A stretch of DNA of 64,000 nucleotides from Nipponacmea schrenckii (Eukaryota > Mollusca > Gastropoda > Lottiidae): assembly GCA_030562195.1 (NCBI GenBank), contig JAUJPP010000005.1, positions 34,149,106 through 34,213,105 of the forward strand, in the 5' to 3' direction. Below the pieces are notes generated by a model. It was not told the DNA's origin, did no database searches, and saw nothing but the letters and a program-made list of their open reading frames with translations. Numbering within the stretch: the stretch's first letter is position 1; each line of letters begins with the position of its first letter. A program made the position numbers and the translations under genes. Positions 10,794 through 62,541 of the stretch are shown piece after piece.

Positions 10794-47671
<36,878 letters not shown>

Positions 47672-52585: not shown

Positions 52586-53752
52586 TTATAATATATCAAG
52601 CAGAAAACACTCTCTCACTTCAGTTTTCAAACTACTATGACAAAAAAAAAAAAAAAAAAAAAAACACCTTTGAATAAATTCAAAGGTTTGAGTTGCCTTT
52701 GGATGATATTCCAAATTAAATATATAGTAAACTCCAAACACTACCATCACTGCCTCATCTATAGTGTCTAAAGTTGTTATCACTTTATTCTCCAATACAA
52801 TATGGAATAAAAGGGCTGTACAAATCTCCTAAAAAAGTAATAAAAGGATAGATGGAAGAGATGCAATGTAAGAAATACAACCTCTTTAAACGTTGAAAAT
52901 AAATTATATTTATAAGCAGAAATATAAAGCATAACGGGGGTGTTTGGCAACCCCAAAAGATACACCCATTTGACCATGATAACGATAACTATTAAAAATA
53001 TTCCCTATACTTCTGTTCAGCAAAGAAAATCATCAATCCTAGGTGAACCAATGTGTTCATTTCCTTTCTTCAATATTATTGGAAAAAAGGGAAATTGTTG
53101 TTACTTCCTATGATATTATAGGAAACAGAAAAAAACAGTGGCTTTCGTGTTGGAAAGCTTTCAAACCTCCATCCAATGCAAAAGAGTCAAAGGCTAATTT
53201 CAAAGGACACAATCCCTATAATTAATCTAACTTCCACCTACCAATCACTGCAATTACTGGAGCACCATCCTTTCTCCTGATAGACTCAACTTGTTTAACA
53301 TCTGTACTATGGAAGACAATCCCTGCCATAATTAATCATTCTTAATGCTTAATTCGGTGTTAAACATTAGTACAGTAAAATCAACATTTGTACGCTTAAT
53401 TTGACATTCGTTCACTAAATTCATAATTTGTTGTTAAAAATTTATCATTCGAATAAAGAATATTACTGAACAAATTAACGATAAAGCCGAACTAATATTG
53501 CCCACTTCATAACGCCGAATGAAGTTTACCGAACAAATGTTGAAAAACATTTCTCGCATTTCATGAGAACGATATCATTATGACGACATGTGGCGCTGCT
53601 CAATTTTAGTTAGGGCTTCGTTCCTATTTGATGAGGCCATTCCTTTTACTTCAACTCCAGTAAATAGGAAAGGAAACAATGGTATTGTGACGGATCAAGG
53701 TGACTCTGGGGTGCGAAACTCGGTCGTTTCATAGCTAAATTCGCCTAGACAT

Positions 53753-54907
53753 GTGTCTGTACTTGTATGGAACATTAATGGTCTGAAATCATCCGTATCT
53801 GATAAATCGTTTGTTAACTTTCTTTCATATTATGATCTACTTCTGTTTAGTGAAACTTGGATTAAGGATGAAGCTACAATTGCCATCAATAACTTTTCAG
53901 AGGGAATATTCATAAATCGGCAAAAATCATTCCAATTGGGAAAGCGTTACGATATATGTGGTGGTTTAGCTGTATATTTCAAACCATTTCTAAAGGATTT
54001 TATTCAAGTCAAGGACATATGTGACTGGGGTGCTTGCGTTCTCAAGTGTGATAAAAGGATATGTTTTGATATCAAAACCACTTTCATTATATTTACATAT
54101 ATCCCTCCTGATAACAGTTCATTCCATAACATTCTCGATTTGGATCCATTTCTCAAAATTGAGCAGCTATATCGTAAATTTTGCGATGAGGGTAATGTTT
54201 TAATATGTGGTGATTTAAATGGCCGAACCAGAAGTGAACTTGACTTTATTGTAAACAACAACCTTGATCATTATTTAGATAGTGCTCCATATGATGATCC
54301 GAATATTGATGACTTTTCCATAAGATTTTCTGAAGATAAAATCCTTAATGCCTTTGGTAAGCGTATACTAGAACTCTGCAAGTCTACTGGATGTTTGATT
54401 TGCAATGGTAGGCTTGGTAATGACATTGGGATTGGTAAATTCACATATCACTCGGCTAAAGGTCATAGCTTGATCGACTACTTAATTGTCCCTCCTAGCT
54501 TTTTACCCTATATAATAGATTTCGATGTACTTGATCCCACGGAATATTCTGACCACTGTGCATTGAGTTTCAAACTTGAGCTTGCGTCTAGTTTTAGACG
54601 TATCACAGCTTCAACTTCAAGCAATGAGGTAGTTATGAACGTAAGGGTTAAATGGGAAGCCTGTAAGGTTAATGAATTCAGAGAGTTAGTATCTTTGAAC
54701 TTTACCAAACTTCAGGATATTATTCAAACGCATTGTAATGATGTACATGTCCTGGTCAGTGAGGTTAGTGATATTTTTAAGAATATCATTCAAACTATAT
54801 TTGGCAAAGTTCGCTTCACACTACCCATAACAAATGGCTATCGTAAGATCAAAAACGATCCCTGGTTTGACTCTTCGTGCAGGAAATCCAGGAAGTCTAA
54901 CACATAA
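53753..54907 (+). pseudogene. LINE endonuclease domain (APE type), truncated ORF2
   Basis: 384 codons are open. The exonuclease-endonuclease-phosphatase fold covers about residues 1-280: WNINGL (N), LLFSETW (catalytic E), FTYIPPDNS, ICGDLNGRTR (GDxN), LIDYLIV and YSDHCALSF (SDH). This nuclease nicks target DNA to prime reverse transcription. The frame is open upstream to a TAG without an ATG; the first codon shown is GTG, so the true start is probably lost. After SSCRKSRKSNT the frame ends at the deletion that removed the reverse transcriptase. Confidence 0.82.
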
Positions 54908-54918
54908 CACAACATTCT

Positions 54919-55764
54919 TTATTCCAATCATTAGTTGAATCGATCTTAAACTACGGTTGTGAGGTATGGGGTTTTACCCGGGCCCAAAACCCATCGAAAA
55001 GATTAAAAATGATTTCCTACGTTACATTTTGTTTGCTGGTAAAAATACACCCTTACTAACATTATTTGGTGATACAGGTATTTTCCCATTGTATGTTACT
55101 AGGAGAGTTAAGATTATTAATTATTGGCTAAAAATCTTGTCTTCGAACAATCCACTATTGTATACTACCTTTAAAACTATGCGCGCTGATAGCTTTCACG
55201 GTAAAGAAAATTGGGCTAGTAATCTCCACAAATTGCTTGATGAGTTGGGTTTTAGTATAGTCTTTACGGAAAATTATCCTGTTAACATTAAGCTTATTCA
55301 TTCTATTCATAATCGGATAAAAGACCAGTATATTCAGGAATGGTCATCTGCAATCGCTGCATCCAGTAAGTTAAGATTTTACCAACGTGTTAAAGTTAAT
55401 TTTAGAACTGAGTTCTATCTAGAATCAAAACTGTTAAATAAAGCTTATAAGAATATTATTTTCAAACTAAGATCTGGTACATTGAAGCTTAATATCGAAA
55501 TAGGCAGATATTTTTAAAATAGACCGTGATAAAAGAATATGTAAAATTTGTCAGACTAAATCTGTCGAAGATGAATATCATTTATTGCTTTGTTGTCCAG
55601 CATACACTATGCTAAGACATAAATTTCTCCCTCGTTTCGCCTGGTCATTTCCTTGCTTGTCCAAATTAGACAGAATATTGAAATTTGACAAAATTATTGA
55701 CCTGCGTAATCTCGGGAAATATTTAGTGGAAGCTATGAAATTTAGATCTAATTTAATTTCTTAA
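54919..55764 (+). pseudogene. LINE ORF2 C-terminal region
   Basis: 54966-55517 encodes the post-RT region (EKIKNDFLRYILFAGKNTPL, LYVTRRVKIINYWLKIL, RIKDQYIQEW). After a one-base break near 55515 it continues to a zinc-knuckle-like CKICQTKSVEDEYHLLLCCP and a stop at about 55764. This is the usual C-terminus of CR1/RTE-like LINE proteins in marine invertebrates; clade not resolved. Confidence 0.75.
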
Positions 55765-58700
55765 CTATTGTGTATTTACAATTTTGTATGAATTGCATGT
55801 ATGAACTTATTATTTTTGTATATTATTATATGATTCTGTAAATTATTTTTGTAAAATTAGGGGCTATAGCTACATTTGTGGCTTTGTCTGAAATAAACTA
55901 TCAACTATCTATTTGTTTCGCCAATTTTTATGGACGGCCAGTGGCTGTGTACAAAGTAAAGAATCTTATTATGAATTCCAATTTGATAAAAAGCGAAGAT
56001 TTTAATCAAACTCTTGGTACTCTTTATTCATTGGAATGTGAGATTTTGAGATAAATATGGTGCCTATACCATGAAATGTTTTCAAAATGGCAAATTTTTG
56101 TACAGTCCACAGTGATGGTGGTTGGACAGATAATTTGATGGAATTTGCAAAATCCCAACTACCGGTACATGGTTTCTTCAGACGTGTGAATATATATAAA
56201 ATTCCAATATAATAGTATTTTCATGCAAAGTTTAGTTACTGGCCAGATAATCAAACTCTTGGTTCTCTTTATTCATTGGAATGTAAGATTTTGAGATAAA
56301 TATGGTGCCTATACCAGGAAATGTTTTGAAAAATGGCCAATTTTTGTACAGTCCACAGTGATGGTTGTGGGACAGATATTTTGATGGAATTGGCAAAATC
56401 CCAACTACCGGTACATGGTTTCTTCACACCTTTGAAGATATCGAAAATTCCAATATAAAAGTATTTTCATGACAAGCTTAGTTACTGGCCAGTTCGAGAC
56501 GAATTTTTGAATAGTCCACTCTGATGGTGGTGGGCTATGTTTTGATGGAATTGGCAGAATCCCAACCACATGGCGCCTTCAGACCTGTGAATATCCCCAA
56601 AATTCCAAAGAAATGGTATTTTCATGCCAAACCTAATGACTGGTCAGTCAGTGATGAAGACTCTTCATGGCCATTTTTTGAAAAATGGACAATTTTTTAA
56701 CAGGCCACGGTGATGGTGGTTGGGCATAAATTTTGATGGAATTGGCAGAATCCTAACCACACGGTGCCTTCAGACCTGGGAATAAATCAAATAATTCCAA
56801 TGTAATGGTATTTTCATGCAAAATTTAGCGACTGGCCAGTCAGTGATAAAGACTTCATGGCAAATTTTTTGAAAAATGACCTTTGTTTGAAAAGTCCACG
56901 CTGATGCCAAACGTAGTGACTGGCCAGTCAATTGATAAAATATGGTCAATTTTTTTATCAGTTCACGCTGATGGTGGTGGGGCATAAGTTTTGATGATGG
57001 AATTGGTAGAATCCCTACCACATGTGGTGCCTTCAGACCTATGAAAATCCAAAAAATTCCAATGAAATGGTATTTTCATGCCAAATTTAGCGACTGGCCA
57101 GTCAGTGATAAAGACTCTTCATGGCAAATTTTTTGAAAAATGACCTTTGTTTGAAAAGTCCATTCTGATGGTGGTGGGGAATAAATTTTGAATTGGCAGA
57201 ATCCCAACCAAATAGTGGCTTCTGACCTTTATGCCCCACCACCATCAGCGTGGACTGTTAAAAATTGACGACGAGCCATAACAAGTCTTCATCTTTATCT
57301 GGCCAGTAACTAAACTTGGCATGAAAATACTATTATATTGGAATTTTAGATATATTCACACGTCTGAAGAAACCATGTGGTTTGGATTTTGCAAATTCCA
57401 TCAAATTATCTGCCCACCACCATCACTGTGGACTGTACAAAAATTTGCCATTTTGAAAACATTCCATGGTATAGGCACCATATTTATCTCAAAATCTCAC
57501 ATTCCAATGAATAAAGAGTACCAAGAGTTTGATTAAAATCTTCGCTTTTTATCAAATTGGAATTCATAATAAGATTCTTTACTTTGTAAAGGCCACTGGC
57601 CGGCCATAAAAATTGACCAAATAAATAGGAACGAAGCCCTAACTCAAATTGAGCAGCGCCACTTGTCGTCATAATGATAATGTTCTCATGAAATGCGAGA
57701 AATGTTTTTCAACATTTGTTCGGTAAACTTCATTCGGCGTTATGAAGTGGGCAATATTAGTTCGGCTTTATCGTAAATTTGCTCAGTAATATTCTTTATT
57801 CGAATGATAAATTTTTAACAACAAATTATGAATTTAGTGAACGAATGTCAAATTAAGCGTACAAATGTTGATTTTACTGTACTAATGTTTATCACCGAAT
57901 TAAGCATTAAGAATGATTAATTATGGCAGGGATTGTCTTCCATACTGTACAAGGCTAAAATTAAACAAAGGTTTTTTTTTATTGTTTCTGATTGCAAATA
58001 CTAAAAAAAAAAAATCTGGCAAAGTAAAAAATAAAAATGTTATCTAACAAAAAGTAATTATTACAGATAAAAGCAGTGCCAAAGATAAGGGCTACCACTT
58101 TAGTTCACATGTCTGTCTATTACTTACCAGATTTTAAATTATTCAAATTTTTAGTAAAGAGAATCAACAAGGTTTTTTTTATCCTACAGAGTATAGTATG
58201 GTCTTCTAATGTTTGGAGGACACTTGACAATATTACTTAAAGATTACTTACCTGGTGAAATTCTAACAGACCATCCTCCTTGAAGTATGTCAAAAGCAGT
58301 TGGATAAAGGCAGCTAGCTTGATGTGTGGATGGACTGCCTTAACTTGACTGTCCATTATACTTATTTCCTTACGAAGGGTTGTGAATAATTGAAAATTTC
58401 CTTTTCCCATTATTTACGTAACTAAGTAATGAATGGCCAGTTAACGTTTCAAAGTGCTGACACAACACAACACCTCTTTCTGTAAAATGTATGGAAATTC
58501 TTTTAATATATCTGTGGTAACACCAGAATTTATTATCTTCCTCTGTAATGGGTATGTTTCATTCATGTACTGAACCACAGTTCCTTGACAAGTGAAGTTT
58601 TTTGACCTTTGGAATTCCGATTTCATCCACTCCTTTTTCTTATTTAAAAGTTCTTCTTCTTCACTATCTATTGCCACACTCCATGTATCCAAACAACCAT

Positions 58701-59195
58701 ATGTTTTGGTACACAATTTATTTGCTTCTATTTCATTTCCTGTAGATGAATCACTGCTTTTTCGATTTAAATTGTTGAGCCGATCCATGATACAGGACAT
58801 AACACTTGAATAACCGTTTCCTATGACTTTTCCCATAATATTGTCACCTAAAGATTGTTCATATCGACTGACGAAACGCGACGCTATGATATGCACATCT
58901 TTGAAATTCGGTTTCTTGCATACATCCCTAATACTGTGCACCAAAATTCTTATCGTCTCCCTTCTCAAATATTCAGCTGGTCTTTTATTTTCTTCACACT
59001 CGTCAAGAAAGAGCTTGGGAAATTTCTCCCAAGGTATCTTAAATGACTGCGCCCAAAAAGAAGGAGGCATTCCTTGGTCATCCGAAGAAGAGCTTCTATG
59101 CGAGCTTGAACAAGGTGAATTCAACAGGATTGTTAAAGTGCTGTGATCTGTATAATATGTACTTTCAATACTGGTATTTGAAGAGTTTCCATCAT

Positions 59196-59643
59196 CTGAA
59201 GAATATGAAAGAATAACCCTTAAAAATAATGGAGACATCCTACCACACAAGGTTATGATCATTACTCACATATTGTTTATATATCATAAACAAGCAGACA
59301 CCAAAAAGACAATATGCTCACCTGCAGCCACTCTGAGGAGTGCAAAAAACACAAATAGCATACAAAATTGAAAAAATAATGGATGCTATAAAAATTGTGT
59401 TCTATATCATAATGATGCTGGTTTTGGAATATAATGGACATTTAATGATGATGAGGCTGTATACCAAATTTCATAAAGATCTATGATGATGTAGCCACAG
59501 ACCCAGTTCCATGATGATTCTATAATAATTGTGGTCTAGATCGCCCCAACAAGTTATACAATATCTGTATCACCAAGATCACTATAAAAGTCCCCTTTGT
59601 CATGCCAAGAACCCACAACAAAAAGCGTAGAAAATTATGGATA
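59196..59643. other. Intron 1 of the SAMD3-like gene
   Basis: AT-rich, with a few ATGATG-rich words; no gene or clear repeat seen before the LTR element. Confidence 0.4.
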
Positions 59644-59648
59644 GTACT

Positions 59649-60131
59649 ATGACAGTGTGATGTTATAGAAACTAATCAGCCCTAGACTCTCCAATAGTAA
59701 CAGAAGCTTAATTACATTAATCCATTTATTCCTGTTATTACCTTATTCAACTGTCAGCTAAACATTTCATTTTAAACAGCTTTAATCTTTTTATGTTTTA
59801 ATTGTCTATTGTTTCACTAAATCTTGGATTAATCTATTGTATTTCAATTGGTAATTAATTAATGTCAATGCAGCAATTTTAATATAAATACTGACCGATA
59901 TGATATGAGAGACATCTTGGATTTACCAGATCAACCATTCAGACGGACTATGCCAATGTATATGGAAATATTGTAACCATTAGTATTTTAACAGGATCAA
60001 GTGCATCTTGGATTGGCCAGAACACCTATGCAGACGGACAACGCCGATGTATTTGTAAATATTGTATCCAGATATTATTAAACAGTTTTAAGTTCTTTAT
60101 CATAGTTTTAGTGTATTTTCTCACTACTACA
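59649..60131 (+). repeat. Left LTR
   Basis: Contains a TATA-like TATAAATACTGACC near 59884. It also has an imperfect internal duplication of about 90 bp (CATCTTGGATTTACCAGA...CAGACGGACTATGCCAATG versus CATCTTGGATTGGCCAGA...CAGACGGACAACGCCGATG). The LTR should supply the promoter and poly-A signals. Confidence 0.9.
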
Positions 60132-60210
60132 ATTGGTGGAGATCCTACAAGATTCCGGTACCCTCAAAAGAAAAGCCAGTAAGTGTACCCCCTACAATAG
60201 AAGAACAGTT

Positions 60211-61161
60211 ATGGAAAGTATCATTCCCAGAAAGGTATTGGATCTTTTAAAACTTATGGGATTACAGAATTTTCCAGTTAACTGGTCGATAGAAGAAAAG
60301 AATGAACAGTTCTCACTTATGTTGACATGGAACAGAAATTCTCACAGGTTTGCTTCGACCTATAAACCACTGGTTAAATCTGAAAGCAGGCTGAAACGAG
60401 ACAGAATGAGATATCAACAGTACAAAGAGAAGAGAGCATATATTAACTCCAGTACCACATCCACTTCAGTAATAGATACTGGTCGAGAAACAGGCAAGGT
60501 TTCAATTCAAACAGCTGAAATTACAATGTTTACCAGTGAAATAGGCAGCCAAACTTCCAATGCCATTCACCACGATAAGGGTATAGCAGCAAAGATAATG
60601 ACTAGCACCACATCTTCTCAGACAGATGAAGCTACAATGAAACGGTCTGTCAAAATGTTTGCTGCTTCGACAATCCAGAAAGTAGCAGAGAAGGTTGTGA
60701 GAAGAAAACTAAGTATACGGAAAGCAGGAAAGATGGAATACCTGGTGAAATGGAAGAATCTCCCTTCAACTATGAACACGTGGGTAATCGACGATGACTT
60801 AGATGCTAACGCATCTGAGTATATTCGTAAATATTCGTCAAGAATACCTGGGCCTACCAGACGAGACAAAAGGCATATGCAACATATAGCGTATTTGAAG
60901 GCGGAACAACCGAAATTAATAAAGAAGCGAATGGAACATAGTACTTTAAGTGAAATGGTTTTAAAAAGAAGAACACTGTTGAATGGTGACACTGAATATT
61001 TTATAAAATGGACTGGGCTGCCATCTACAATGAATTCATGGGTTTTAGAGCAGAATTTAGACGATAACGCCTGGGATTATTTAAACGAGAACGAGTGTAA
61101 AATAGAGTGTCAAGAATGTGGTGGATATGCATATTATGCGGATAGATTTAATCGTTATTAA
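60211..61161 (+). CDS. Double-chromodomain protein of the LTR element, 316 residues
   Basis: First ATG at 60211 (MESIIPRKVLDLLK); the frame is open upstream to the LTR without another ATG. The N-terminal part (NWSIEEKNEQFSLMLTW, KSESRLKRDRMRYQQYKEK) is like N-terminal regions of other invertebrate retroelement proteins I recall. A Ser/Thr-rich linker follows. Then come two chromodomains, each with the retroelement-style pattern: about 60688-60840 (VVRRKLSIRK, MEYLVKWKNLPSTMNTWV) and about 60949-61095 (MVLKRRTLL, TEYFIKWTGLPSTMNSWV). The aromatic residues Y and W are present (EYLVKW, NTWV; EYFIKW, NSWV). The tail has CQECGGYAYYADRF. Chromodomains bind methylated histone tails and, in Gypsy chromoviruses, sit at the end of integrase to steer insertion. 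A free double-chromodomain product is unusual; its role is inference. Confidence 0.85.
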   Translation: MESIIPRKVLDLLKLMGLQNFPVNWSIEEKNEQFSLMLTWNRNSHRFASTYKPLVKSESRLKRDRMRYQQYKEKRAYINSSTTSTSVIDTGRETGKVSIQTAEITMFTSEIGSQTSNAIHHDKGIAAKIMTSTTSSQTDEATMKRSVKMFAASTIQKVAEKVVRRKLSIRKAGKMEYLVKWKNLPSTMNTWVIDDDLDANASEYIRKYSSRIPGPTRRDKRHMQHIAYLKAEQPKLIKKRMEHSTLSEMVLKRRTLLNGDTEYFIKWTGLPSTMNSWVLEQNLDDNAWDYLNENECKIECQECGGYAYYADRFNRY

Positions 61162-61227
61162 TCGTGTGTGTGCTGACTTTTCTTCTTTAAGCCTCGAGGA
61201 CGAGATTTTTCACGGAAGGGGCGTATT

Positions 61228-61710
61228 ATGACAGTGTGATGTTATAGAAACTAATCAGCCCTAGACTCTCCAATAGTAACAGAAGCTTAATTACATTAAT
61301 CCATTTATTCCTGTTATTACCTTATTCAACTGTCAGCTAAACATTTCATTTTAAACAGCTTTAATCTTTTTATGTTTTAATTGTCTATTGTTTCACTAAA
61401 TCTTGGATTAATCTATTGTATTTCAATTGGTAATTAATTAATGTCAATGCAGCAATTTTAATATAAATACTGACCGATATGATATGAGAGACATCTTGGA
61501 TTTACCAGATCAACCATTCAGACGGACTATGCCAATGTATATGGAAATATTGTAACCATTAGTATTTTAACAGGATCAAGTGCATCTTGGATTGGCCAGA
61601 ACACCTATGCAGACGGACAACGCCGATGTATTTGTAAATATTGTATCCAGATATTATTAAACAGTTTTAAGTTCTTTATCATAGTTTTAGTGTATTTTCT
61701 CACTACTACA
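61228..61710 (+). repeat. Right LTR
   Basis: Same length as the left LTR and without a visible difference. It ends 12 bases from the donor of exon 1 of the minus-strand SAMD3-like gene. Confidence 0.9.
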
Positions 61711-61931
61711 GTACTCACTAATACCTGACCCAGTAATTTGTCTGCGTGCTTCAGCCAACAGCCTTCTTGCTGGAATTAGCTTTACGATATCAGATATACC
61801 CTCTGCTTGGACATACTGAAGAGATTGCACACTACCAACACCCAAGTCCTCTAATTTTTTCTTGAGAAGGCTTATCTGTGTTGTAGATAAATCTGGCATT
61901 AATTCTTTTATCAGTAAAATAACCTCACTTT

Positions 61932-62541
61932 TTGGCACTTTTATTACCATTTTCAATGATTGTGTATATATGCACTAAGATTCTGGTGAACTTCTTTTTT
62001 AAGAGCACCCCACCTGAACAGAATAGACAGATTAGTTCTGGAAGTCCAATTCGTGCATCAGGAGGAGGGTTAGGAAAAGCACAAAGAAAGATGATGAAAA
62101 TGTTGTTAACTACAATTATGGTTTTCCTTCTGCTTTACCTTCCAAGTCATGCTTTAACACTTCAGTCTTATATTAGATCCATCATCAATTCAGAATACAG
62201 TACATCTGAAATTGAGCATCTTATACAACAAATACTTCAGATTTTGTATTACTTGAATTTCGGTAGCAAATTCTTTATATATAACATATGCTCAAAAAAG
62301 TTTAGACAAATCTTACTTAATTTTGATACCAGTGCGTGTTTCAGCTAGAGATCTGGAAAGACAGGAACAACCACGACCTAATATTATAAGGAATGAAAAC
62401 TCTTATTTAGTCGAAATCCATTTATCTCAGATACATTGGTCCGAATTGCCCTCTCTTCAAGAAGAGTTTGTAGCTAAGTCACCACACTGTTATATCAGGA
62501 TTGATGAACATGATAGAAACACATCAGTTGTATTATCATGA
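61932..62541 (+). pseudogene. Class-A GPCR C-terminal fragment
   Basis: 61932-62348 is open. It reads a TM5-like LALLLPFSMIVYICTKIL, a cytoplasmic loop ending KAQRKMMKML, TM6 VFLLLYLPSHALTLQ and TM7 ILYYLNFGSKFFIYNICSKKF. The usual NPxxY is changed to SKFFIY, with a short basic helix-8 after it, as in divergent molluscan peptide receptors. A possible tail (62323-62541, DLERQEQPRPNIIRNENSY) is in another frame. TM1-TM4 are not found upstream on this strand. The start overlaps, antisense, the first exon of the SAMD3-like gene by about 25 bp; an AG at 61979-61980 could instead be the exon start. Called a partial or broken gene. Confidence 0.5.

Follow-up and report, generated by a model that had tools for sequence, protein, structure and literature searches.

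A putative non-autonomous LTR retrotransposon whose only open reading frame encodes a double-chromodomain protein

Introduction

Retroelement chromodomains are known as tails of integrase. In the retrotransposon chromodomains assigned to group II, the first and usually the third cage aromatic are lost and the tryptophan is kept, and the available text of the reports concerned gives them as plant-only (PMC3350952; PMC3605345). TR-GAG elements, also of plants, have two LTRs round a single open reading frame (ORF) and no pol, and have been suggested to be parasites of other LTR elements; a new insertion reported for them is a precedent for mobile single-ORF LTR elements (PMC8704663). TRIMs are shorter than 1000 bp with repeats of 100–250 bp, and the biv-TRIM of bivalves has repeats of 202–218 bp and an inner domain of 77–80 bp (PMC6934838). 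Also, maize Bs1 is a gene-transducing LTR element that carries pieces of host genes (PMC13317346), and in the LTR elements of bdelloid rotifers extra ORFs have been added to the conserved ones (PMC5408684).

Here, we analyse an LTR element within a 64-kb stretch of DNA (33% G+C), the whole of which is referred to below as the window. The initial annotation had described a retroelement with a double-chromodomain protein as its only gene, and knew of no described family with this layout. Likewise, none of the papers listed in our search of the literature, judged by title, abstract opening and passages and with subscription papers and Repbase outside its scope, describes such an element, and the word 'chromodomain' has no occurrence in the available text of a survey of bivalve transposons (PMC10294476).

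Element boundaries and non-coding features

The whole element measures 2062 bp, with an internal region of 1096 bp. Its boundaries and non-coding features, in window positions, are listed below.

59644–59648, no strand: left copy of the target-site duplication GTACT; a 4-bp GTAC is equally possible
59649–60131, plus strand: 5' LTR, 483 bp, ATGACAG...CTACTACA, identical to the 3' LTR at 483/483 bases
59883–59888, plus strand: TATAAA word in the 5' LTR, possible promoter (consensus match only)
59913–60093, plus strand: tandem duplication within the LTR: two copies with a period of 91 bp, 76% alike across 90 bases
60077–60082, plus strand: ATTAAA word that could serve as the LTR's poly(A) signal (consensus match only)
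60134–60143, plus strand: primer-binding-site-like word TGGTGGAGAT, beginning 2 nt after the 5' LTR
60179–60184, plus strand: GTAAGT in the leader, ahead of the ORF, resembling a splice donor (consensus match only)
61214–61221, plus strand: polypurine tract GGAAGGGG, six bases before the 3' LTR
61228–61710, plus strand: 3' LTR, 483 bp, identical to the 5' LTR
61711–61715, no strand: right copy of the target-site duplication GTACT, matching the left copy

Direct comparison of the LTRs bore out their annotated identity over the full 483 bp, with GTACT (or GTAC) on both sides. When the T at 59648 is included the repeat has 484 bases; the border is ambiguous by 1 base, and the pairing of a 484-bp LTR with a 4-bp duplication (GTAC) is as possible as that of 483 bp with GTACT. 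LTR retrotransposons in general have direct repeats at both ends and, outside these, a short target-site duplication, as found here. The doubt that the LTRs could be an assembly duplication was dispelled, because the 5-bp duplication is present at the outer edges only. From the 0/483 differences between the LTRs it follows that the element appears to have moved very recently, gene conversion aside, as originally proposed; the further proposal, that such a layout works for mobility, goes beyond what one copy can show.

The word GTATT (61223–61227), in the 5 bases before the 3' LTR, differs from the target duplication at one position, and extending the LTR match by these bases gives 488 bases at 99.8%. 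This likeness reflects either chance or a target preference. Troyka, with CG...CG ends and 3-bp duplications (PMC12440569), was ruled out by its differing ends and duplication length.

Within the LTR, the order of TATAAA, tandem duplication and ATTAAA would suit a U3-R-U5 arrangement. The annotated primer-site-like and purine-tract-like words both proved to sit where they are expected in an LTR retrotransposon. The primer-site-like word occurs twice in 265 kb (the window plus a 201-kb genome sample), and only the occurrence at 60134 adjoins an LTR. We take it to resemble the complement of the 3' end of an animal tRNA-Ala; ARAGORN detected no tRNA genes in the 64-kb window, and a literature search found no paper on a tRNA-Ala primer site. 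The GTAAGT of the leader, ahead of the ORF, may be a hint that a longer relative is spliced. A structured leader was also considered and rejected: positions 59910–60215 fold no better than shuffles (z 1.50; 96/100 shuffles folded at least as well).

Genomic surroundings

Relative to a leftward pair of gene-like frames (61723–61956 and 58441–59262), the element is in antisense orientation, and the joined empty site has a splice-donor-like word, GTGAGT, at the insertion point. An insertion into an intron of this frame pair is possible from such features. Neither frame matches a Pfam family. A likeness of the pair to SAM-domain genes was supported neither by Pfam nor by a convincing solved structure (best E 0.28).

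Several other features were observed in the window. A fragment of a rhodopsin-type GPCR (7tm_1, PF00001; 61923–62345, plus strand; 30.7 bits against a cut-off of 30.5) adjoins the element. A LINE-type endonuclease frame (53735–54904, PF03372) lies between inverted repeats (53308–53629 and 57623–57944) that are 98% alike, and pieces of this repeat region (53308–57944) recur in genome sample L019 at 87–97%. The GPCR fragment and the endonuclease frame point to an animal genome. Positions 30516–36366 hold large tandem arrays whose units measure 56 bp and 22 bp (about 20, 10 and 73 copies), with smaller ones next to them; in the 22-bp array, the minus strand has long open frames of repetitive sequence. 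Inverted 161-bp tandem arrays with GGAC/GTCC runs at their edges (43651–45961) are also found in genome sample L013 at 86–94%. Direct repeats of 710, 311 and 165 bp that are 97–99% alike (23135–26551) perhaps represent a nested or tandem transposon.

The double-chromodomain protein

The coding features of the element are the following.

60211–61161, plus strand: the only ORF, double-chromodomain protein of 316 residues, first ATG to stop
60211–60660, plus strand: N-terminal 150 residues, with 0 Pfam families at E<=0.01
60682–60843, plus strand: chromodomain 1, residues 158–211 (PF00385, 43.3 bits against a cut-off of 25.1)
60952–61068, plus strand: chromodomain 2, residues 248–286 (PF00385, 34.0 bits against the same cut-off of 25.1)

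The ORF fills the internal region, starting 79 bases past the 5' LTR and ending 52 bases before the purine tract; its stop-to-stop frame is 60112–61158. The longest open frame of the internal region has 342 codons, compared with 87 on average and at most 256 among 1000 sequences drawn from a first-order Markov model. The annotated frame of 316 residues with two chromodomains was upheld by a Pfam profile search in which the piece of each domain was scored separately. Similarly, the reported lack of gag and pol agrees with the search of the ORF: seven Pfam families were listed at E<=1, none of them for gag, protease, RT, RNase H or integrase, although the filters of this search remove most matches with E beyond about 0.1. 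Beside the chromodomains, no integrase-tail family was found at the same threshold.

The N-terminal 150 residues carry a net positive charge and are rich in S/T (23 K/R, 15 D/E, 35 S/T). A similar basic N-terminal motif may occur in hypothetical proteins of bivalves. Among solved structures, the best match of chromodomain 1 is HP1 (E 3.8e-6). The best chromodomain match of chromodomain 2 is CBX3 (E 2.6e-6), ranked below 7ue2, a designed repeat protein whose matching stretches are each insignificant. AlphaFold2 applied to the ORF alone gave a mean pLDDT of 41.6 and a pTM of 0.18, and the model was discarded.

Alignments to HP1 and CBX chains place the methyl-lysine cage (Y24, W45 and Y48 of HP1) at K157, W181 and L184 in chromodomain 1 and at T245, W267 and L270 in chromodomain 2. 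Each chromodomain has thus lost the first and third cage aromatics and keeps the middle one. In chromodomain 1, K157 stands opposite a tyrosine of CBX5; another alignment pairs that tyrosine with K161, also non-aromatic. The first cage position of chromodomain 2 falls immediately beyond the edge of the HP1 alignment; it was assigned by extending that alignment by a single residue, where we take HP1 Y24 to fall. The three-aromatic cage of a classical H3K9me-reading chromodomain is absent, and both domains fall within the group II definition, that is, without the first and usually the third cage aromatic. Because two cage residues are lost in each domain, simple reading of H3K9me, and steering to it by the HP1 route, is unlikely as judged from the residues.

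Chromodomains 1 and 2 align over 53 residue pairs, 22 of them identical (score 123, best of 2000 shuffles 48). Over these 53 codons, differences at positions 1, 2 and 3 number 20, 16 and 34, and 11 of the 19 degenerate identical residues use different codons in the two domains. Neutral simulations matched to the observed number of base changes kept as many residues in 3/5000 cases, and 92% of those simulations held a stop. The 28-codon block round the conserved core shows position 1/2/3 differences of 7/4/20 (binomial P 0.0004 for position 3) and keeps 16/28 residues, a level that neutral simulation reached in 2/5000 cases; its dN is about 0.30, with synonymous divergence not computable. On the strength of residue identity, silent-site bias and the simulations, we read the chromodomains as an old duplication, both copies of which were probably maintained under protein-level selection. 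The signal comes from comparing the two chromodomains with each other, with the N-terminal half outside that comparison, and the selection could have taken place within the element or, before entry into it, within a host gene.

Copies and relatives

Neither the LTR nor the internal region has a match at E<=0.01 in the 201-kb genome sample, which comes from one contig, and the ORF has none there at E<=1. Other repeats of the window do recur in this sample (megablast, 53 match rows). The element family is not very abundant in the 201 kb; a sample of this size could well miss one that is present at less than about one copy per 100 kb.

No protein relatives were found among 2508, 107 and 18 candidates (E<=0.01, 10 and 10, respectively), in collections whose animal coverage is not established. 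With the same qualification on animal coverage, viral contigs gave no match, and 20 stretches of genome contigs fitted a pattern, 0 of which were confirmed. PHROGs returned two weak matches (E 0.0021 and 0.047).

Interpretation

With moderate confidence, we consider this a recently moved non-autonomous LTR retrotransposon that has an accessory chromodomain protein of its own and depends on an autonomous partner to move it in trans. The target-site duplication at the outer edges only, the length of the ORF and its filling of the internal region, the two chromodomains and the marks of selection all argue for this reading, as does the TR-GAG precedent as described in the available text (PMC8704663). 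Protein-level selection on both domains would fit an accessory protein better than debris. Counterpoints are the single copy, with none further in 201 kb of one contig, and the lack of relatives in the protein and contig searches. In the proposed mechanism, the LTR promoter would produce an RNA serving as both template and mRNA, and an autonomous LTR element would supply Gag, protease, RT and integrase in trans. One end of the accessory protein could bind the partner's particle, its integrase or the element RNA, and the other end a partner on chromatin, either in place of H3K9me or in addition to it. The protein may in this way bias packaging, nuclear retention or target choice in the element's favour.

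The ORF might instead be a passenger, derived from a processed double-chromodomain host gene that an LTR element captured recently, in which case the selection would be that gene's past. Bs1 is a described precedent (PMC13317346), stand-alone chromodomain proteins are host-like, the best chromodomain matches among solved structures are HP1 and CBX3, and only one copy is known. We regard such a capture as unlikely: the ORF holds no gag or pol family at E<=1 and closely fits the space from primer site to purine tract, its domains have lost cage residues that canonical HP1 keeps, and no host parent gene is present in the 201-kb sample of one contig.

Rather less probable still is an internal deletion of a chromovirus-like Gypsy element, joining a gag start to a pol tail with tandem C-terminal chromodomains and leaving a defective copy that rides on intact relatives. 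The chromodomains do occupy the 3' part of the ORF, close to the LTR and the purine tract, on the same side as in chromoviruses, and share the cage pattern of group II chromoviruses (PMC3350952; PMC3605345). However, no integrase, RT or gag family appears in the ORF at E<=1, the 150 residues ahead of the first domain are without a family match at E<=0.01, and the breakpoint would have to fall just before the first chromodomain. A full-text literature search, judged by title and abstract opening, also found no LTR retrotransposon with two chromodomains. That there is no functional family at all, only an isolated insertion or a host locus wrongly read as an element, its open frame being incidental, strikes us as improbable. 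The missing second copy in 201 kb from one contig is in keeping with such a case, whereas the target duplication, the LTR identity, the ORF length relative to controls, the two significant chromodomains and the codon-position bias all speak against it.

A more specific form of the preferred accessory-protein reading is put forward tentatively, as a doubtful possibility: an animal family of LTR parasites in which gag and pol were replaced by a free two-chromodomain tether that acts in trans on the partner's integration complex, evolved apart from integrase, and is group II-like and not H3K9me-reading. The initial annotation had suggested a free targeting factor that works in trans, or a captured host-like chromodomain gene. 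Of its account, the real insertion, the stand-alone double-chromodomain ORF, the young LTRs and the lack of recognisable pol are borne out, and H3K9me steering by the HP1 route is weakened, with two of three cage residues lost. If true, a stand-alone double-chromodomain protein as a small parasite's only product would separate targeting from catalysis, and one could ask whether a tether supplied in trans decides where, or whether, the partner's machinery inserts the parasite. It would also mean that non-autonomous LTR elements keep a non-Gag protein under selection.

Comparison with known systems

What appears new here is a pair of diverged sister chromodomains apparently kept as protein, with a group II-like cage and no integrase-tail family, in an element inserted antisense beside a splice-donor-like word. 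By its anatomy, as read from the DNA, the element is an LTR retrotransposon that falls under the definition of neither TRIM nor chromovirus. It is a small non-autonomous LTR element, as are TRIMs, which are known in invertebrate animals, but its 2062 bp, 483-bp LTRs and 316-residue ORF lie outside the TRIM definition (PMC6934838). With group II chromoviruses of the Ty3/Gypsy type it has in common a chromodomain on the 3' side of the coding region and the cage pattern (PMC3350952; PMC3605345). It differs from them in having two chromodomains in place of one and no integrase, RT or gag family at E<=1, and no gag-pol element with a chromodomain at the integrase C-terminus is seen. In addition, group II is plant-only in the available text of these reports, while the host here is apparently an animal.

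Like Bs1, it is an LTR element with an ORF of possible host origin (PMC13317346), but no host gene pieces or gag remnants were identified in it. The LTR elements of bdelloid rotifers also carry extra ORFs, added there to conserved ones, whereas the ORF of the present element stands alone (PMC5408684). TR-GAG elements likewise have two LTRs, a single ORF and no recognisable pol. The single ORF found here has no Gag family at E<=1, with which a divergent Gag-like N-terminus is still compatible, and the element differs from TR-GAG in lacking a recognisable Gag, in the two chromodomains at the end of its ORF and in its apparent animal host (PMC8704663).
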